Shown here: positions 6,301 to 61,903 of the stretch, in pieces
Layout: each line of letters begins with the position of its first letter
Numbering within the stretch: the stretch's first letter is position 1
NCBI GenBank assembly: GCA_900095095.1
Contig: FMBT01000353.1
Span: forward strand, 62,001 to 126,000
DNA length: 64,000 nt
Reading direction: 5' to 3'
Source: Fragilariopsis cylindrus CCMP1102
Lineage: Eukaryota > Bacillariophyta > Bacillariophyceae > Bacillariales > Bacillariaceae
Made by a program: the position numbers and the translations under genes
Notes under the pieces: generated by a model
What the model was told of the DNA's origin: nothing
The model's input: only the letters and a program-made list of their open reading frames with translations
The model's database searches: none

Positions 6301-7968
6301 TTCTGGAGTTGGCACTACCATCGTCGTTGTCGTTGACGCTGGTGCTTCATCTTGCTTTTCCTCTTCTTTACTGTTGTCGTCGTCGATACCGTCATCACTT
6401 TCTTCATTGTCTTTTGTCCTTTCCACCGGTTTAACTATCGATGGCGAAATTTCGGATGCATTATCATCATGTACATTTTGTTCCCTTTCCTTCCCTATTA
6501 TATCTCCCATTTTCCCATTATCTGGAACAACAATTGAAGGTTTATCAGCATCACCATCCCGGTTAGTGTCGTTTTGATTAATGTCGGCAGTATTATTACT
6601 GTCCGATGATACTACTATCACGTCATCATGAGATTCGGTTACAGTATTTTTCTCCACTACCGTCGTTGCACTATTCGTAGCAGCATCTGTTATTGAATTC
6701 AATGTAGGTATTTCTGACGATGTTGTCGTGGTCGTCTCTGCTTTCTCTATATCGTCGGTCGCTGTATCCAATGATGGTTGAATGCTACTATCTTTAGTAC
6801 TAGTAGTAGTAGTGGGGGTAGATATATTCAGAAACGGATCGGAGATTAATGTTCCTGCCGGTTGTTGTTGTTGTGACTGTGGTTTTGTTGGGTGCATGAA
6901 TACTCCGAAAGGATCCTCATTACCACTTTTTGGGACAGTAGTGATAGTAGTAGCAGCTGCAGGTGGAATTGCATCTGTAGCAGCCATCATTGTACTATCC
7001 AAAACCGTCGATTGCTGTTGCGAAGGATCGACGGGCGCGAAACTATCTCGTTTTGTTGTTACTGGCATTGAAGTGGTATCATTATTACCAGCAAATATGT
7101 CCAATAGTTGTTCTTGTTCTTGTTGCTGCTGCGTAGGATGAGGCTGAGGATCCAAAACATCAACAAATGGTGACTGTTGAGTATTCTGTGTTGATTCTAC
7201 GGTACCCTCATTATTATTATTACTATTATTGTCAATGCCTTCACCACCAAAGTCTAGAAGATTGATTGATGCTTGTCGTTGAGGTTGCGATTGCTGCTCT
7301 CGTTCATTTGGTTCTGAATGCTGCTGCTGCTGCTGCTGCTGCTGTTGTAGATCTGCGTCTTCAACGCCGTTGACAGCACCAAAGTGTAGCAGATTAATTG
7401 ATGCTTGTCGTTGAGGTTGCGATTGCTGTTCCTGCTCATTCGGTTCTGAATGCTGCTGCTGCTGCTGTTGTAGATCTGCGTCTTCAACGCCGTTGACAGC
7501 ACCAAAGTCTAGCAGATTGATTGATGCTTGTCGTTGAGGTTGAGGTTGCGATTGCTGTTCCTGCTCATTCGGTTCTGAATGCTGCTGCTGATGTAGATCT
7601 GTGTCTTCAACGTCGTTGACAGCACCAAAGTCTAGAAGATTGATAGATGCTTGTCGTTGAGGTTGAGGTTGTGGTTGAAGTTCCTGTTCCTGTTCATTTG
7701 GTTCTGAATGCTGCTGCTGTTGTAGATCCACATCTTGTACGTCGCTTGCAATATCTGCTGAAGATGGAGGAGGCAGAGCGAAGTCCATCGATCCCGACGG
7801 CGGCGGCGGCGACAACGACGACTGTTGATGGAGATCATCAGTATTCGCAGGAATCGAAGATGTTGTGTTGTTGTTGGTGTTGGTATTATCAAATGCAGAT
7901 CCATCATCATCATCATCGAGCAAATCACTATTCGCCATATCAGACAATTTTTCGAAATAGATATTCAA
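3317..7968 (-). CDS. Large acidic coiled-coil protein with repeated clathrin/AP-type motifs
   Basis: One frame runs from the ATG at 7968 to a stop at 3574 (1464 aa). The coding signal then continues in the next frame down to 3317 (DSIRNHTNRAVQKLENETQR, then VSRNVLAFSSSVERMNGLLDG). One extra base near 3620 (GG read as GGG) joins them into about 1550 aa with a Gly-rich tail, so the apparent stop is probably not the true end. The N-terminus has four tandem copies of RQASINLL(D/H)FG separated by Gln-rich linkers, plus LLDIFAG, DPFGVF and DPFLN. LLDF/LLDIF resemble clathrin-box peptides and DPF is an AP2-ear ligand. A long acidic, Ser/Thr-rich middle follows. The last ~400 residues form a coiled coil (about 1070-1370). 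No enzyme domain is seen. An endocytic or Golgi tether/adaptor role is inferred from the motifs only. Confidence 0.7.
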
Positions 7969-46578: not shown

Positions 46579-47296
46579 CGTTTAGTGTTCATTCACAAAA
46601 TCTTGCTCTTGTGGTTCTGGTTGTTTGTATTTATTATTAGGTGAATGATTGTTGCAGGTTTTTGTCGAAAGGGAAGTACGAGTACGCACTAGTAGTGTGA
46701 AGTTGAAGGGGTTCCTTCCATGTAGTGTTTGTAGTATCATCTATGTTTTCTCTCCCTTCTAAAGAAAAATAGATATTTTAATGAAAGCGTTTTCGAGAAT
46801 TCAATCATCTTCGAATCTCTACTAACTAGTCCCGTGGGACCTAACTTCGACAAGATCGATAGTCTTAACTAAAAGAAAGGTACGGGGATAAATAATTTTA
46901 TCCTGCAGTTTTCTGAAGAGAAAGCGAACGCAAAGTTGCCAAAACAATGGGTGTGTCTTTGTTCGGGATAAAAAAATCGCTGGTATTTTCATAATACTAA
47001 AGATGGAAGTACAAAGTGGAAGTGGCCAAACGTTTAATTTTTCAGGATTAGACTGAGATGGAAAACCATAAAGAAAAATAGTAGAGAAAACAATTATTCA
47101 CGTTTCACGTTGTTTTCTTTTCATGTAGATTTTTAATTCGATTCATTCATTCATTCATTCGGTTCAGGTATACAATTCCTTTATCTGATCTATCATTTCG
47201 TTTAATCGATTTATTCGGTTCAACAGATTTATTGCTCTACATATTAACTCCAGGCTGGTATCATTTCAAATTACTGTTCATGAAGTATATTCATGC
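46579..47296. other. Intergenic, holds one 34-bp direct repeat
   Basis: Upstream of the transporter and 3' of the ABC gene. It includes the 34-bp repeat (46808-46841) and an ATTC repeat at about 47139-47160. No gene seen. Confidence 0.55.
46808..46841 (+). repeat. 34-bp direct repeat, left copy
   Basis: The sequence begins TCTTCGAATCTCTACTAACT and ends CCCGTGGGACC. It is identical to 51157-51190 in the same orientation. The two copies flank the ABC transporter gene on either side, about 4.3 kb apart. Confidence 0.85.
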
Positions 47297-50200
47297 TTAA
47301 TGACCGTCAAGGTTAATTAGTGCCTCGTTAACATGTCTTTCGCTTTTAACCTTCTGCAGAAAACAGTCACGATCTAATAAGGGAACTGTACTATTTGATC
47401 TTTCGTTGTTCTTGCCATCAATATCAGTGGAAGAGCCGGCTTGCACCATGCTAAAAAAAATGCCATCGTCAATCTGGATCAACTCATGGTAGGTGCCATG
47501 TTCGGCAATAGTCCCGTGATCGAGAACGACAATCTGATCTGCATCCTTAGACGTAAATGTGCTGTGAGATATGGAAACTATGGTCAGTTGCTCCGAGTCT
47601 CGGAGCCTTACGATCGTTTTCACAATCGAAGCCGCGGTCTCGGGATCAAGCGCGGACGTTGCCTCATCCAACAGCAGAACGGAAGGCTTTCGATATAATA
47701 CTCGAGCCAAACAAATGCGCTGAATCAACGCCAGTTGCGACCAAATATATATAGCAAAGTAAATATTAGAAATTGAAGCAATTGAAAAAGAGAATGAAAA
47801 CCAAAAGATAGGAAAAAAATCGAACTTACCTGAAGCTGCCCCCCGCTCATGTTTATACGGCTGTCGCCCCCAAGAACAGTGTCATAACCATCTGGTAGCA
47901 TGGAAATTATGTCAGCTATTTCTGCCATGGTGGCGGCCTCAAATACCGCACCATCATTGTTGTCGGGTGAGCCAAAAAGAATGTTTTCTCGTATAGTCCC
48001 CTCTAGTATCATAGTTTTTTGAAACATCACCGAAACATATTGCCGGTAGCTCCTTAAAGAAGCACCAAATATTTCGGTTCCGTCCCACATAATAGAACCC
48101 TCATTGGGTTGCAGGTTTCTCATGAGCAAGTTGATCAGAGTGGTCTTTCCAGATCCACTAAGCCCACAAAGGACATTATAGGTCCCCCGTTTAAATGACA
48201 AATTGATACCTTTCAGCACTTCAACCGGCGAACCTTTATATCGAAATATGACCCCCTGTTTATCAGTATCAATGGTAAAACAACGCCAGTTGTGACCAAA
48301 TGTATAGAGCAAAGTGAATATTAGAAATGGAAGCAATTGAAAAAGAGAATATAAACCAGAAGATAGAAGAAATGTCGAACTTACCTTCATATCTATGCTC
48401 TCAGTAAGCGGGGATAACGACGGGTGATCAGCGCCATTGTAATTAATAACAGTATTTCCACTAGCAATCAAATCATCAACTTTGCGAATACAACCAGCAG
48501 AATTCGATGCTTCACGCATGAAACCACCTAGCCGATTGAGTGGTTCTGTCATACTGGCAGCCAAACTCACCAACGTGACAAACCCACCGACAAGTGTGGT
48601 ATTATCGTCGGAATCTAGTACAGCTTTGCCATAGGGTATGATGACAAACAAAGTATAGATCGCGCCACACATCAGATAGTAGACCGAAATAGCTCCACTT
48701 GAAAAAATAGACCGTTGTCGTGCCTGGCTGAGTTCCAAAAGCATGGGCTGAATGCGATCAGCTGCCCATACTCCGGTGTCAGACGTAATTAAAACCGGAA
48801 GACAGTTGACAAGGCTCGCAAAATTAGAGGCTAACTTGCCTTCCAATCGTGATGCCTTTTGAGATGCTTCCGAAACAATAATGCAGATCTTATTTAGTAA
48901 CAAAACAATCAATGAAATGTATGCAATGATAATAATCTTGCATAAAAAATAACAAGATTATTTCCTGTGAAACAACCAAGAACTTACCGTCCGTAGCTTT
49001 CTTGGTAAGATCGTCATTGCTATACATTACAGGCAATAGACAAATAAATGCTGCGGCCAAAATGATATTGACTTGTAAGCATGAAAGGCAAGCGATGGTA
49101 ATTTTCATTGTAGAGAACAACATGGTGTAAGTGGACGTGATGAGTGTCACTTCTACCCGACCCGTTTGACTTGTAAACACATCGACGATTTCTCCTGCGG
49201 AAGAACCATCACCGTCAACATTACTATTCACAACAGCACCCAGGGCTCGCTGCCGACACAATAGCATTGCTCGTGTATTCAGCTTCGATTGAGAATACGA
49301 CAATGCAAGCATGATCACGGGATTAATACCCGCTAGAAAAAAATACACAATTAAGGCTGTTCTGGCATCCTTTTGATTATAGCTCGCGTTGTTGACAAAT
49401 ATACCTAAAGCGATGGCCTGTACCGGCGCAATTGCTGCGGCCATCGACATGATGATTAGCGATACGATGAATTCTCGAGGACATTGGATCCACTTTTGAA
49501 GGATGGTCCAGACTAAGGCAAAGGAGGTGATCGGGACGGGGACCTTCTCGATGTTACAACCATGCTCACTATCGCAATACGACGAGAGGCAGTTGGCCAT
49601 TTGTTTCACGACTCGTCTGAATTCGGACGAACTCAAATACTGACTGTTGTTGTTGGATTTCCAACCGGGCCATATCGAAACATGTTCGGAAATGCGTTTC
49701 ACGATGCACCAATAATCGAGGGCACCATCGCCCGCCGCACGTACCCGTTGATCGAGATCTATTTTTACTTTTTTGCCACGTTTAATGTCCTCGGAGACAA
49801 TCAATACTTCCAACGCATGATTAAAAGCCTCTTGGACTTGCTCCTTGGTTATTTCGGTGGACGTTTTTCGGAAAGATTGCATAATCATACTCGTGTCGCT
49901 ATTTTCGTCGTCGTGATCATTAAATTTACCTGCTTGGTTGGTACCGAGGACATCTCGCAATTCATTCATCGGTTCATGATTTATTCGCAAAAAGAACAAA
50001 TAACATCCGAACATGATTAGAGTTACAGATAAGATTGCTGTTTCGGATCGGTTCAATTGCTCGCATCCCAATGTTATGTTGAATTTGTCTTCTACGACGA
50101 GCAAGCCAATAATAGCAATGGCCAGATGCAACACCAGCGATAAAACGCACTGGAATCCTCCCCAGCGAAAATATATCAAGCCTCCAAAGAACGGGAGCGA

Positions 50201-50401: not shown

Positions 50402-50728
50402 TATTTTGTATGTTGTTGTTGTGGGAGGGTGTGCTTTAATATTATTACTGAGTGTAGCTAGTACTTTCTCTATGCAGCTTGTATTCCTTTGTTATCATGT
50501 CCAAACTTGTGCACTGTGTCTTTTCTGCGTCGTATTGATTCGATTATTCCTCTTGTTTGATCGCGTTTCCTATCATATTTGCTACATGATTTTGAAGTAC
50601 AGTAGTAGAGAGTCCTCTCTCTCTAGCGAGTCTATCACCGGTACGATTGTCATGAATAGATATGACCTCCTAGGAAGAGATTTTGATTTTTTTTTCCCCA
50701 TGGTGCACAGCATACACACAACACATAT

Positions 50729-50891
50729 TTCCTCCGTGCAACGCAGGTTGTCCACGGGGTAAGCCATAATAATGAGACGACGGTTTCTTTATTTAATATT
50801 TTCCTCTCAAATCACTCACTCTCCGTGCTTTTGCGCACGTTAAAATATTATAGCGCTTATCCCTGTGGACGACCTGCGTTGCACGGAGGAA
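50729..50891. repeat. Inverted repeat of about 35 bp arms, MITE- or hairpin-like
   Basis: The left arm 50729-50763 starts TTCCTCCGTGCAACGCAGG; the right arm 50856-50891 is its reverse complement with about four differences. The loop is about 92 bp and AT-rich. No clear target-site duplication was found. It may be a miniature element or a structured RNA. Confidence 0.7.
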
Positions 50892-51156
50892 GTACTAGTA
50901 CAGCACTATTCATCGAGTCAATAATCAGTAACTTATGCTTTTAGGATGAATAAGATCATACTACTCACATGGAAATTGACAGCCATTAGAAATATTGAAT
51001 TTAGGTAGAACAAATGTAGCTGCTGTTAGTACTTTTTCTAGAAGTAATTTGGAAATTTCATTTAACATTTCTCATAAACATTTATTTTGTTTCTAAAGAT
51101 CTCTCTCAAAACAGTTTTGATTGTTTGTACATCCAAAAATAGTTGAGCAGTAGTAG

Positions 51157-51190
51157 TCTTCGAATCTCTACTAACTAGTCCCGTGGGACC
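51157..51190 (+). repeat. 34-bp direct repeat, right copy
   Basis: Identical to 46808-46841, same orientation, on the other side of the ABC transporter gene and just left of the calpain gene. Confidence 0.85.
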
Positions 51191-56812: not shown

Positions 56813-57367
56813 TTACTGTTCTTCATCAACAGGGACAATATCTGATACTATTCCTTGTTTATGTAACCCTTCATTGTATGTTTCCGCAATTTCAAAACAA
56901 AATACTCCAACACATGCGATACCATTCTGATGAGCTGTCATCATCGTTTGATAGGCAGTCATTTCTGTGATACCCGTAATCTGTACGAGTGATCGTGCCA
57001 CATGCTCTCTTGTATTTAATCCATCATTGTATATTCGGACCTCCCATTCTTCACCACCCACATGTTCACGTTCTTTTACAACAGAAGAGGATCGATCAAT
57101 GACCTTCTTTTCTGCTGGACGATCTAATACAGCCGGTCCGGTGGTTCTACCTGTTTTCTCTCTTTCAATAGTAGCCGGTCCTGCTGCTAATGCTGTGTTG
57201 AGTCTGTTATTGTGAGTCGTTGAAGCATGTCGTTGTTGTTGTTGTTGTTGATGTTGTACCGGTACATGTAGTTGTTGTGCATGGAAAGCGATACAAGTAC
57301 CAAACAAAGAAGAGCATAAAAATAGCGGAAGTACAGCAGACAGTAAAAATTTCATCGTGGAGATCAT
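56813..57367 (-). CDS. clpS: ATP-dependent Clp protease adaptor ClpS, plastid
   Basis: 184 aa from the ATG at 57367; the Met at residue 5 (MKFLLSAVLPLF) is an equally good start. The signal peptide ends GTCIA-FHAQ, an ASAFAP-type site, so the protein is plastid-targeted. The ClpS core is at about 100-180: EEWEVRIYNDGLNTREHVAR, with the N-degron pocket region VYNDG-like, LVQITGITEMTAYQTMMTAH and the segment GVFCFEIAETYNEGLHKQG. ClpS delivers N-degron substrates to the plastid Clp protease. The linker between signal and core is Gln- and Thr-rich. The gene is intact and intronless. Confidence 0.93.
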   Translation of the reverse strand: MISTMKFLLSAVLPLFLCSSLFGTCIAFHAQQLHVPVQHQQQQQQRHASTTHNNRLNTALAAGPATIEREKTGRTTGPAVLDRPAEKKVIDRSSSVVKEREHVGGEEWEVRIYNDGLNTREHVARSLVQITGITEMTAYQTMMTAHQNGIACVGVFCFEIAETYNEGLHKQGIVSDIVPVDEEQ

Positions 57368-58322
57368 CGTGCTAATTATATATGATTATTGTAGGTTGGG
57401 GTAGTTAGTTGAGCTGGTTAGTTGTGAAAGCAATAACAATTGATTTATGAGCTAATTCAATAATTATACGGAGCAAATCGGTTTAGATTGGAGGGAGACA
57501 ACAATATTTTAATGGTCAAAACTAAGAAGTATCAACACAAATGCAATACAGAAAGAAGCTGCAAGATGCACTTAATTCAAACTAAAATTTGGTGGATGAC
57601 GAACGACGAGTGATACACTGTACTTTAAGTACCGGAGGAGGATAGTTCTTTACGGTATTTAATTTTTGACACGAACAAATACTAAGTAAAATTGCGCGAG
57701 AAAAAGTGTGTAAGATTGTTAGTGAATTTGCTGTGTAAAGAGTGATGAGAGTGACGAAATTTATGTAATTTTTGATTGAAGATTGTGAATTGTGAGATTG
57801 GGGGAAAGATGTATATTTTGTGGTCCAAAAAATAAAATAAAAATTGTCGATCATTTTTAGATTTTCTTGGCGATCCCCTCAAAATCCGTTACTTTTGTTA
57901 CGATCGCAGAATACTGTAATCCTACGTAGTTTGATTGCAATATCATTTTTTGCGCGATGATTTAAACTTACATACAGTGAAACCACATACAAAATACGTT
58001 AAATGCGCGCGCCGAAAGTTGGTAGAGAGTTAACTACAAGTCTTCGAATTTTTTTCTAAATTCACCCATAAAGTAAAGGGGGGAGCAGATTGCGCGATGA
58101 TGTGTTAAAAGATTGCATCGTTGAACTTCAAGATCGAAAAACAAAGGGAGAATTGTGTCGTCCGAGAGAATGCAAGACTCATCAATTTCAAGTCCACAAA
58201 TATGTAATGCTATAAATCGAATGTAAAATGCATAAAAATCAACGAAGAAAATCGACCGTAATGCTTATCGGGGAACCACCCTATGCCATAACTTTATCAT
58301 AGCATCGAATTAATGTTCTAAC
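57368..58322. other. Intergenic, no protein gene seen
   Basis: AT-rich, between ClpS and the tRNA-Sec array. Minus-strand frames at 57582-57882 look random. Confidence 0.55.
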
Positions 58323-58409
58323 GTGTGCATGATATAGCCTGGTGGTTATTGCAGGCTTCAAACCTGTAGACGGCTAACGCCGTAGTTGTTCGATTCAACC
58401 TTGCGCACG
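58323..58409 (+). tRNA. tRNA-Sec (anticodon UCA), copy 1
   Basis: 87 nt including the discriminator G. The eukaryotic 9+4 form: a 9-bp acceptor stem GTGTGCATG/CTTGCGCAC with the U-U mismatch at pair 8 seen in animal tRNA-Sec. The 6-bp D-stem is ATAGCC/GGTTAT with a TGGT loop, the 6-bp anticodon stem TGCAGG/CCTGTA with loop CTTCAAA (anticodon 58358-58360). The long variable arm is ACGGC/GCCGT, and the 4-bp T-stem GTTG/CAAC has loop TTCGATT. It decodes UGA as selenocysteine. A short T4 run lies about 10 nt downstream. This is probably the main functional copy. Confidence 0.96.
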
Positions 58410-58541
58410 TGTTGGTATTATTTTGGTTTGGTTTGGGGGCAGAAAAAAAATCCAAGTTTATATTTGGGCGATAGGACGGTGACGGTGATACCTATGGTTC
58501 AAGTAGCCTTAATTTTATCTTTCAATCAATCAGTCTATTTG

Positions 58542-58628
58542 GTGTGCATGATCCAATTTGGTAATTGGTACAGGCTTCAAACCTGTAGACGGCTAACGCC
58601 GTAGTTGTTCGATTCAACCTTGCGCACG
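58542..58628 (+). tRNA. tRNA-Sec (anticodon UCA), copy 2 with a replaced D-stem
   Basis: 87 nt, 219 nt after copy 1. From the anticodon loop to the 3' end it is identical to copy 1. The D-arm is completely different yet fully paired: CCAATT/AATTGG around the same TGGT loop, in place of ATAGCC/GGTTAT. The anticodon stem has TACAGG, turning a G-U pair into A-U. The acceptor stem equals copy 1. No T4 terminator follows closely. The structure suggests it could fold and function. Confidence 0.9.
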
Positions 58629-58742
58629 TTGTATTATTTGGGGCAAATGATATCAATCAATCCAATATGGGGAGTACGTACCACTATATAGGAGTTCAAG
58701 TAGCCTTAATTTTATCTATCTATCATCAATCAGTCCTATTTG

Positions 58743-58829
58743 GTGTACATGATATAGCCTGGTGGTTATTGCAGGCTTCAAACCTGTAGATGGCTAACGC
58801 CGTAGTTGCTCGATTCAACCTTGCGCACG
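58743..58829 (+). tRNA. tRNA-Sec (anticodon UCA), copy 3, slightly degenerate
   Basis: 87 nt, 201 nt after copy 2. The body follows copy 1 (D-arm ATAGCC/GGTTAT), but the acceptor stem has A at position 5, giving an A-C mismatch. The variable arm has a G-U pair (ATGGC/GCCGT) and the T-loop starts with C instead of T. The upstream flank (AAGTAGCCTTAATTTTATCT) is shared with copy 2 but not copy 1. It may be a decaying or weak copy. Confidence 0.85.
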
Positions 58830-59470
58830 TATAACGTTCCTTTCCACTCTCTCAAGTCCAGAAAAATTCGGCTGTTTTTCGTTACATAAGCTGTTGCTTG
58901 CTGATGCATTATCATCAATCCAAGAGAACCCTGAAATAATTCGAACGCGACGACGGTCTTTAATACTTTTGTTTCTTCTGCGACATTGTTTCCCTTAAAC
59001 GAGTATCCGAGTTGAAATCGAAGATTTGTCTAACTGGTGTTCGTAGTTTTTTGATCCGAGCGATGCACCTAGTTCCATCCTAGTTTGTTGCCCAATTTGG
59101 AACCCAGTTCCATCGCGAGTGCTGTTCCAAGTAGGGAGCTGAGCAACTTGCTCAGATTGCGACCCAGCTTTATGAAGGGCCAAAACTACTTGTAAGTCAA
59201 GACAACAAATTCAATGGTCGTTAACGGTAACAACTAGTGAACTCGAACCTGTTCCGTTGTAACTGGAAAATAAGCACTGCCATGTATGTATTCAATACAC
59301 ACACGTAATTATTATAGTGACGAAATTATCCGTACGAATATAGTAGCATATACTATGTATGTGGTTAGTTAGGCATCATGTTTTAAAGTTCTTTCAAGTT
59401 ATTATTTACAGTTTTAAGTCAGTTAAATGATCATCCCCTGATCTTATAGTAGCATTTCGTATTTAGTTAG
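58830..59470. other. Intergenic, no gene seen
   Basis: A minus-strand frame at 58995-59183 is not coding-like. Right of the tRNA array no further tRNA-like unit is found. Confidence 0.55.
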
Positions 59471-61903
59471 TTAGGCATCGCCATCATCACCGGCTGGACA
59501 ACCCGGCCATTCAATTTGTTCTAAACAATTCAAGTATTCAAAGTTCATTGTAAAGTCAGCACCAAAATGATTGACCATAGCAGAACTAACAAGTGCACCA
59601 GTTGATATTAACCAGAAGAAAAAATACCAAAAATGATCCTTGAAGATATAAGATAATATCCGACCCAATGATAATTTTTTGCCTTCTCCTAGCCCTTGTT
59701 TGGAACTAAAGAAGACACTATAATTGATCCCAACTACCAGTAATAACATCAATACAATAAATATTGATCCGTATTTCTGTGCTTCAAACCAACGCTCATC
59801 ACTAATTTGGAATGATTCATTCAAATGCTGTGCTGAACTTGGTATATTCCGTACTGCAATAAAAATTAATTGTTGATTGATACGAACAATAATATTTACA
59901 CATAGTGACCCAGTTGAATCGACCATATGATACAGATCACGTTGTTCCCATATTTCCTTTCCTCTTTTAGTAGCAGTAGTAGATGGTGTTACTACTTTCT
60001 TCTTGCCCTCATCAGAATCATTACTATTATCGTTTGGTGTATCATCATCGAGTATGATATTCTCGAAGCCATCCGTTCGTCCTCCCATTGTTCCTATCCT
60101 ACTAGTAATAATCGAGTCGTCATCGCTGCCAAAGTTTATAGGGGCTTCAACATCGTACTCGTCATCGTCGTCGTCATTGGTGGTGGTGGTGGTGGTGGTG
60201 GTGGTGGTGCCATCTCCTACACCCCTCATGATGCTCGCGAAGTTATTCATCTCGATTGCCATACTAGAGTCGTCATCACTATCATCATACATCATTACAC
60301 GATTTGTGGCATTTTCGATGCTACCCCTACCCGCATCGGTAGAATATAAGTAAGCATGCTTGCTCACATTCCCTCCATTATCGGGAAAATACGTTCCGTT
60401 TTCTTCTTCTTCTTCTTCACCAACGGTCGTATCAAGAGTTGTAGAAGTATTGCATTTCGTTAAGCTCCGTACTACGTCTTGTCTGTCTTCGCTTAGACTC
60501 ATATTGATGATATATTGATTCGATCCAGTGAAGCAGGCTTCTGTGATACCTTTCATTCTACTTGATTTTGATGATCTCCCGCCCACGTCCACGCCAACAA
60601 CATTACCATTACCATCGGTATCGTGCTGTTCCTGGCCTTCTAATGCTGTTGCCTTTATAGCACCCCACCAAAGACCAATCCGGTCAACACCATTGTAGTA
60701 TCGCCATAGTACCACAGACGATTCACTGGCGAAGAGCGCAAGTAACGTAAAGGGACTATCGATGAAAGGCCACGTAGCAATTTGAACCCTCGTGAAAAGC
60801 ACATCAACTACAAGGTTGAGTTGAATGAGTCGCTTCGGATTGAGACGTACTGCGGTGTTTGCACATATCAATATCTTGCATATGAATCGTAAAATAGCAT
60901 ATGAGAATAAGACCAAGTATTGAAGCGGATTGCCCTGTAGTCGTTGGATACCAATAGCCCACCCGATTACCGCCGTCAGTGATACCCAATAAGCGAGTAG
61001 ATGAGTAAACATGAGACAAAAATTTCCACGCTCTCGATCCGGCTTGGGCGTCATCAAATACATGATGGGAACAGCTGGAAGAGTTCCCAATGTTCCCGTA
61101 ACGAAAATCGAGAAGGGAATCGGAAATATCGGCTCGTAGATAAATATTCCTTTCGTCAAAATTACATCAATAACTTTTGCAATGATCAAACCAACGGTTA
61201 ATGCAAGCATTCTTGCACGGACTGGAATCTTAGCTTCAGGCATAGCAAAGTTACATGTTTCTATCCATGGTACTATCATAAATAGTTGATAGAGTGTCAT
61301 GATACCATAGATAAAAATTCGATTTTCTTCAGGTCCGTCATCGACAGGGTTCATTGGTAGGAAGAACACAACCTCGCCAAGAAGTGGACAGAGAATCATT
61401 ATAATTAAAACCCACATTAGTTGTCTCCATCGGAATGTTGCTCGATGGGGAAGATCTTTAATAACATTAACAGTAGTTACGATAGATGCCGTTATTACAC
61501 CCTCAGCGCTTGATCCCCAGGAGATAATGGTCGTATGAAGTTCCGACAACGTCGACGGTAGGTTTCCTGCAATCTCACTTGCGTGAGCAGGTAATTCTAT
61601 CGCTATCTGCTTTATTACATTTGGAACTGTACGTAAATTTTCTGGTAGATCCACAATAATTTGTTGTAACTTCTCAACAACCTTTTTTGGGTCGGCTATG
61701 AAACCAGGAAGAGATATCTGTTGTAAAATTGATGGTAGTAGAGTCGTCGTATTCGCTGTGGCGTCGGAATCGTTGTTTTCGTTGTCGTTGTTATCATCAT
61801 CTCCATCTACATCTCCCCTATGTTTCTTGATGTCTTCCCCATCGTGAATAAGTTTAGGTACTTCATCTACGTCGATAATAAGTCGGGGGATAATACCGAC
61901 CAT
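59471..61903 (-). CDS. Hypothetical large multi-pass membrane protein
   Basis: 810 aa, ATG at 61903, intact and intronless. The N-terminal ~155 residues are hydrophilic, partly helical (VVEKLQQIIVDLPENLRTVP). Eight or so membrane spans follow between about 165 and 420 (for example WVLIIMILCPLLGEVVFFL, MTLYQLFMIVPWIETC, IPFSIFVTGTLGTLPAVPIM). Then comes a long acidic, Thr/Asp/Asn-rich loop (about 450-650) with a poly-Thr run, and two more spans near the C-terminus (IFIVLMLLLVVGINYSVFF and FWYFFFWLISTGALVSSAM). I recognise no family and assign no transport function. The long acidic cytosolic-type loop is typical of this genome. Confidence 0.75.
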   Translation of the reverse strand: MVGIIPRLIIDVDEVPKLIHDGEDIKKHRGDVDGDDDNNDNENNDSDATANTTTLLPSILQQISLPGFIADPKKVVEKLQQIIVDLPENLRTVPNVIKQIAIELPAHASEIAGNLPSTLSELHTTIISWGSSAEGVITASIVTTVNVIKDLPHRATFRWRQLMWVLIIMILCPLLGEVVFFLPMNPVDDGPEENRIFIYGIMTLYQLFMIVPWIETCNFAMPEAKIPVRARMLALTVGLIIAKVIDVILTKGIFIYEPIFPIPFSIFVTGTLGTLPAVPIMYLMTPKPDRERGNFCLMFTHLLAYWVSLTAVIGWAIGIQRLQGNPLQYLVLFSYAILRFICKILICANTAVRLNPKRLIQLNLVVDVLFTRVQIATWPFIDSPFTLLALFASESSVVLWRYYNGVDRIGLWWGAIKATALEGQEQHDTDGNGNVVGVDVGGRSSKSSRMKGITEACFTGSNQYIINMSLSEDRQDVVRSLTKCNTSTTLDTTVGEEEEEENGTYFPDNGGNVSKHAYLYSTDAGRGSIENATNRVMMYDDSDDDSSMAIEMNNFASIMRGVGDGTTTTTTTTTTNDDDDDEYDVEAPINFGSDDDSIITSRIGTMGGRTDGFENIILDDDTPNDNSNDSDEGKKKVVTPSTTATKRGKEIWEQRDLYHMVDSTGSLCVNIIVRINQQLIFIAVRNIPSSAQHLNESFQISDERWFEAQKYGSIFIVLMLLLVVGINYSVFFSSKQGLGEGKKLSLGRILSYIFKDHFWYFFFWLISTGALVSSAMVNHFGADFTMNFEYLNCLEQIEWPGCPAGDDGDA

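Follow-up and report, generated by a model that had tools for sequence, protein, structure and literature searches.

The three selenocysteine tRNA genes that lie head to tail on one strand of the window, the whole 64-kb stretch of Fragilariopsis cylindrus DNA that was analysed (on contig C56 of the assembly), very probably belong to a genuine expanded tRNA-Sec family that has grown by tandem duplication, has been reshuffled between loci and carries interchangeable versions of the D-stem. In the mechanism that we propose, tandem duplication would have produced two triplets and a single gene, and the near-identical tRNA genes would have offered stretches of homology for exchange between loci. 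All copies would yield the same Ser/Sec-accepting tRNA; since the enzymes would read tRNA shape and D-stem length rather than letters, paired changes could have carried the D-stem into three interchangeable forms.

A tandem array of three tRNA-Sec genes

Searching the window with the Rfam model RF01852 (gathering cut-off 47 bits) returned three tRNA-Sec(UCA) genes, each 87 nt long with G73 counted, and no other Rfam match there reached the gathering threshold. Copy a (58323..58409, + strand) scored 75.6 bits (E = 1e-13; match 58323-58408), copy b (58542..58628, + strand) 78.0 bits (E = 2.5e-14; match 58542-58627) and copy c (58743..58829, + strand) 64.8 bits (E = 6.3e-11; match 58743-58828). 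All three have the UCA anticodon, a long variable arm and G73, and the predicted fold of each is the tRNA-Sec cloverleaf. Copies a and b are intact except for a mismatch at pair 8-79 and carry different D-stems, AUAGCC/GGUUAU (version D1) in copy a and CCAAUU/AAUUGG (version D2) in copy b, while copy c is of the D1 type with three changes relative to copy a. The genes are separated by spacers of 132 nt (a-b) and 114 nt (b-c). The initial annotation, which had read from the letters three 87-nt tRNA-Sec(UCA) genes arranged head to tail with spacers of about 130 and 115 nt, and had proposed folding them with a covariance model, was therefore accurate in its coordinates and description. A chance match is ruled out by scores far above the cut-off, and a misread tRNA-Ser was likewise rejected: two sub-threshold matches elsewhere in the assembly (C23 and C451, 41.1 bits) are tRNA-Ser(TGA) genes according to ARAGORN.

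ARAGORN detected copies a and b in the window and missed copy c, in agreement with the sequence changes in the latter. These are G5A, by which an acceptor pair is lost, C49U, which converts a variable-arm pair to a wobble, and U67C in the T-loop, which turns the B box from GTTC to GCTC. In the alignment, the B box GTTCRANNC is intact in copies a and b but not in copy c; among 33 distinct canonical tRNA gene sequences, it is present in 32 and GCTCRANNC in none. Copy c alone has a second mismatch, at pair 5-82, and its predicted folding energy is -23.8 kcal/mol, compared to -30.0 to -34.7 kcal/mol for the other nine gene positions described below. Copy c is thus probably a decaying gene, and copies a and b are probably working genes; at the position of copy c, C138 carries an intact gene with the D2 stem.

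The tRNA-Sec family across the genome

In the complete assembly (67.9 Mb, 818 contigs), at least 13 tRNA-Sec genes exceeded the RF01852 cut-off, distributed over five contigs, of which C56, C138, C69 and C547 carry three genes apiece and C678 a single one; a DNA search of the assembly with the C69 array recovered the identical five contigs. C138 is 98.7% identical to C56 over 9.6 kb, and C547 is 99.2% identical to C69 over 8.1 kb, including a 611-bp array stretch that is 100% identical. A 7-kb piece of the window flank has one other full-length match in the genome, on C138, the remaining matches being short repeats. C56/C138 and C69/C547 are apparently allele pairs, and, read as such, they reduce the family to two tandem triplets and one singleton, or about 3 + 3 + 1 = 7 genes per haploid set. 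In the published FALCON assembly of F. cylindrus, 745 primary contigs total 59.7 Mb and 288 alternate contigs 9.1 Mb (PMC5634323). tRNA-Sec is generally taken to be a single-copy gene (PMC5330540), and the unusual copy number that had been noted from the array is upheld by the genome-wide count. For comparison of the copies, C547 was counted with C69, giving ten gene positions and seven distinct sequences in a gapless alignment; the sequence of copy b is the same as those of C138c, C69b and C69c.

The assembly contains 27 silicon-transporter matches, confirming that the host is a diatom, as the initial annotation had supposed. The 6A8K chain, which we take to be an F. cylindrus protein, has a match on C307 that is 100% identical over 234 residues. 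A viral or prokaryotic origin is ruled out, as the silicon transporters and an ice-binding protein family are the signature of a polar diatom nucleus; a search for an exact 25-base tRNA-Sec pattern gave no matches in viral contigs, in a collection that may omit records of this genome. The ice-binding (PF11999) matches number 53 in the genome, on contigs C420, C439, C445, C674 and others, several of them clustered and a few with internal stops, as can be expected in a sea-ice diatom.

A mosaic array on an apparent allele, and exchange between loci

We aligned C56 and C138 over 9.6 kb and found the differences between these apparent alleles to be concentrated on the array. Two 500-base bins over the array hold 53 substitutions and 70 gap columns, with all 53 substitutions falling within 58206..58890 of the window, compared to no substitutions and six gap columns in the remaining 8,628 columns. 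The a-b spacers of the two contigs are identical at 130/134 positions. The b-c spacer of C138, in contrast, is identical to the b-c spacer of C56 at only 43/114 positions, and matches the C69 spacers at 73/76 (a-b) and 72/76 (b-c) positions, where a shuffled C69 spacer gave 34% identity on average and 49% at most in 30 shuffles. Additionally, the third gene has the D2 stem in C138c and the D1 stem in C56c. The alignment shows that one putative allele holds a piece like the second array locus, bounded by tRNA genes. A spacer resembling C69, together with the D2 stem in C138c, shows exchange between loci.

Within the window, a 32-nt direct repeat (repeat family D2) lies upstream of copy b (58497..58528, + strand) and again upstream of copy c (58694..58725, + strand), the second being 94% identical to the first. 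This repeated upstream block and the mosaic structure of the other allele back the earlier suggestion of duplication, together with unequal exchange, and tandem duplication combined with exchange between loci is well supported. Polishing has possibly erased allelic differences in the F. cylindrus assembly (PMC5634323). The substitution-free flanks of C56 and C138 could therefore partly be a polishing artefact; the foreign spacer of C138 would not be a product of polishing. The mosaic allele would represent an exchange between tRNA loci caught within one sequenced strain.

Scarcity of TTTT terminators downstream of tRNA-Sec genes

We measured the distance from each gene to the first TTTT downstream. 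For copies a, b and c of C56 it is 11, 81 and 45 nt, for the C138 genes 10, 208 and 45 nt, for the C69 genes 563, 400 and 237 nt (the same in C547), and for the C678 gene 43 nt. The sole T-run near a gene in the window array is that following copy a (58421..58424, + strand); the first TTTT past copy b (58710..58713, + strand) lies inside the block upstream of copy c, and the first run past copy c is a TTTTT at 58875..58879 (+ strand). A TTTT is thus found within 20 nt at two of ten tRNA-Sec positions, copy a and its allele, with the same two of ten within about 30 nt. Canonical nuclear tRNA genes have one within 20 nt in 44/45 distinct cases and within 32 nt in 45/45 (Fisher's test for the 20-nt distance, p = 3e-7; p = 2e-6 with each array position counted once, 1/7). 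The control sample comprised 52 loci among the best 63 canonical tRNA matches, including two tRNA-Ser genes, in which ARAGORN found 55 genes; three organelle-like genes on C419 were dropped, and the 52 rows left represent 45 distinct sequences (gene plus 60 nt). Eleven canonical matches were left out: six on C419, two of them inside the locus already excluded, and the five nuclear matches with the lowest scores. At background flank sites, a TTTT occurs within 20 nt in 14.6% of cases, and 6.9% have none for 563 nt. The tRNA-Sec distances resemble this background, which indicates that the usual signal is absent and leaves the use of another polymerase unproven.

A simple account in which the family is just more copies of an ordinary tRNA gene does not predict so few nearby TTTT, and it is tentatively possible that most tRNA-Sec genes are transcribed as parts of longer, perhaps multi-tRNA precursors, made either by Pol II or by a Pol III that stops at distant sites, from which the tRNAs are later excised. 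The comparison with canonical genes favours such terminator-poor transcription, as does the promoter evidence. Vertebrate tRNA-Sec genes have a U6-like (type 3) Pol III promoter, and tRNA-Sec of Trypanosoma brucei is transcribed by Pol II. Both U6 genes of the diatom have TTTATATA at -30 and a terminal run of seven T, and TTTATATA is absent at the U6-like -30 position from all tRNA-Sec upstream regions examined, although a divergent element would escape such a search. Accordingly, a promoter common to U6 and tRNA-Sec was rejected for want of a U6-like box at the expected place. Copy b has AAGTTTATAT at -88 and -90 on the two alleles. Several observations count against long precursors, however: each repeat unit has an upstream block of its own, in keeping with separate promoters; every gene but copy c has an intact B box; copy a has an ordinary TTTT; the background-like distances demonstrate the lack of the usual signal and nothing further; and the count covers TTTT and leaves aside non-canonical terminators. 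A bolder form of the idea, which we regard as unlikely, starts from the C69/C547 triplet, where no TTTT occurs from the first gene until 237 nt past the last. Here the diatom tRNA-Sec genes would stand outside the ordinary tRNA scheme, the triplet would be one multi-tRNA precursor, perhaps made by Pol II, and freedom from per-gene stops would let arrays expand and swap spacers. The missing T-runs in any case raise the question of how tRNA-Sec genes are transcribed and ended.

Selenocysteine machinery and a possible demand for more Sec-tRNA

The genome encodes a SepSecS homologue (220 bits, plus a 45-bit stretch with an internal TGA that is possibly intron sequence) and a selD homologue (187 bits, on two contigs). 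Eukaryotic PSTK gave a weak match only, at 27.7 bits against a cut-off of 382. The SECIS_1 model had no matches in the genome, and because its controls were silent too, this result is uninformative.

Selection for dosage, in which copies would be kept since the cell needs more Sec-tRNA, is compatible with an expanded family and would add a selective cause to it. Most copies are intact and have paired changes, 36 selenoproteins are given for F. cylindrus (PMC5330540, Table 3), and diatoms are reported to have 20 to 44 selenoprotein genes (PMC7539508), all of which is consistent with such selection. We nevertheless consider it doubtful, given that copy c looks to be decaying and that genomes with four copies, this diatom included, were described as not especially selenoprotein-rich for their taxa (PMC5330540).

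Variation in the D-stem

Returning to the expanded family itself, its variation sits mostly in the 6-bp D-stem, which occurs in three fully paired versions. D1 (AUAGCC/GGUUAU) is found in C56a, C56c and C138a, D2 (CCAAUU/AAUUGG) in C56b, C138b, C138c and the C69 genes, and D3 (CCUGCC/GGUAGG) in the C678 gene. D3 has the two outer pairs of D2 and the three inner pairs of D1, and so could be the older form. All ten positions fold as a 9/4 cloverleaf (9-bp acceptor, 4-bp T-stem) with a 6-bp D-stem and a 4-nt loop, and pair 8-79 is mismatched in all copies. In the seven distinct sequences, D-stem cells are paired in 42/42 cases, and five of the six D-stem pairs have changed on both sides, compared to one of six pairs in the anticodon stem and none in the other three stems, with the T-stem invariant. 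For the whole structure, 14 cells had changed on both sides; 500 shuffles averaged 5.5 and never reached 14, and slid versions of the structure gave 0 to 3. Pairs with both-sided change numbered 6 against a shuffled mean of 3.8 (6/500 shuffles as high), and further pair types ran in the opposite direction, at 11 against a shuffled mean of 12.6 (497/500 shuffles as high). As kinship of the sequences inflates covariation counts, we place weight on the tabulated D-stem pairs. The reversal of this one covariation measure, the mismatch at pair 8-79 and the weak PSTK match are among the points that speak against the expanded-family account.

According to a review (PMC7609411), the D-arm is a major identity element for eukaryotic PSTK, by its length, and SelA interacts with the structure of the D-arm and not with its sequence. 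Free drift of paired D-stem letters fits a D-arm that is read by structure and length, and we infer that the D-stem versions are equivalent. The D-stem is the arm by which PSTK separates tRNA-Sec from tRNA-Ser, and about seven genes with three sequence versions and one shape would amount to a natural mutagenesis of it. The suggestion in the initial annotation of a variant Sec-tRNA supply stands at the level of sequence, where three D-stem versions exist, but the versions look structurally equivalent. That the D-stem versions are functionally distinct isoforms, serving for example different temperatures or selenoprotein sets, would account for the coexistence of three versions and the concentration of variation in the D-arm, and yet appears very unlikely: the 6-bp stem and 4-nt loop are kept in every version, the predicted stabilities of the intact copies lie within 5 kcal/mol, and the SelA contact is structural while it is D-arm length that matters for PSTK (PMC7609411).

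Relation to known tRNA-Sec families

A survey with Secmarker (Santesmasses et al. 2017, PMC5330540) had predicted eleven non-identical tRNA-Sec genes in the same species, of which several carry compensatory changes and two a change that breaks the structure, and had listed 36 selenoproteins. Its copy number and compensatory changes agree with our analysis, and our ten positions fit its predictions closely, short of an individual assignment; its main text does not use the word 'tandem', and the arrays, the mosaic and the terminator distances seem not to be described there. Although the differing array between substitution-free C56/C138 flanks and several one-base indels around copy a might suggest that the tandem copies or the C138 mosaic arose from misjoined or badly polished long reads, such an artefact is extremely improbable, as allelic substitutions and a spacer from another locus are not creatable by collapse or polishing, and the eleven non-identical predictions of the survey, which presumably drew on an earlier Sanger assembly, approximate our ten positions (PMC5330540).

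The expanded family also has likenesses outside diatoms. Trypanosoma cruzi Dm28c has eleven tandem tRNA-Sec copies (PMC12421993; an earlier count was eight, PMC2695483), so that it is likewise a protist with many tRNA-Sec genes head to tail on one strand; these form one locus of eleven, whereas the diatom has two loci of three and a singleton, with three D-stem versions. In Leishmania and trypanosomes, tRNA-Sec genes are described as set apart from other tRNA genes by their promoter boxes and the polymerase that they use (PMC6463643, PMC2695483), with Pol II reported together with Pol III at Leishmania tRNA-Sec (PMC6463643). The evidence there consists of run-on work and changed A and B boxes; in the diatom it consists of missing T-runs only, with the B box mostly intact. 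Branchiostoma floridae and Parasteatoda tepidariorum were reported to have four tRNA-Sec genes with compensatory changes (PMC5330540), but with identical changes across the duplicates, where three D-stem versions coexist in the diatom. For the diatom Nitzschia inconspicua, a tRNA-SeC has been reported.

Copy number and compensation have thus been published already, and what seems to be added here is the tandem layout, the mosaic between apparent alleles and the shortage of T-runs; we found no description of a diatom tandem layout, allelic mosaic or terminators of this kind in the open-licence literature searched. In view of the earlier F. cylindrus copies and the tandem genes of T. cruzi, the novelty is modest, and the missing T-runs are the addition most worth testing.

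Genomic surroundings of the arrays

The neighbours of the tRNA-Sec genes were examined as open frames, not as gene models. Upstream of the window array, a ClpS-domain frame (56813..57367, - strand; Pfam PF02617, 51.5 bits) points away from it, and an 810-aa frame (59471..61903, - strand), for which Pfam gave no match at E 0.001, is convergent with it; neither of these two flanking frames is a recognised selenoprotein. About 1 kb upstream of the C69 array is a same-strand MBOAT frame, and the array faces a methyltransferase frame. On the same strand as the C678 gene, a ribosomal L7Ae-family frame stops about 200 nt before it (L012:3963-4973), and the gene possibly lies inside the 3' untranslated region of that frame; the gene also faces a WDR5-like frame. 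The divergent ClpS frame upstream of the window array rules out a same-strand host gene for all tRNA-Sec loci, so that there is no arrangement common to them.

Elsewhere in the window, two 109-nt stretches on the - strand (47723-47831 and 48278-48386), 88% identical and each starting AG followed by GTAAGTTCGA, lie within an ABC-transporter-domain (PF00005) open frame and look like two related, introner-like introns of one gene. A perfect 34-nt direct repeat (46808-46841 and 51157-51190), its copies 4.3 kb apart, flanks ABC-transporter frames. At 50726-50894, 34-nt inverted arms that are 91% complementary, with 101 nt between them, form a MITE-like element, and related stretches occur at many sites in the genome. 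Finally, a Gln-rich - strand open frame contains a 123-nt tandem repeat of 3.7 copies (7245-7719).
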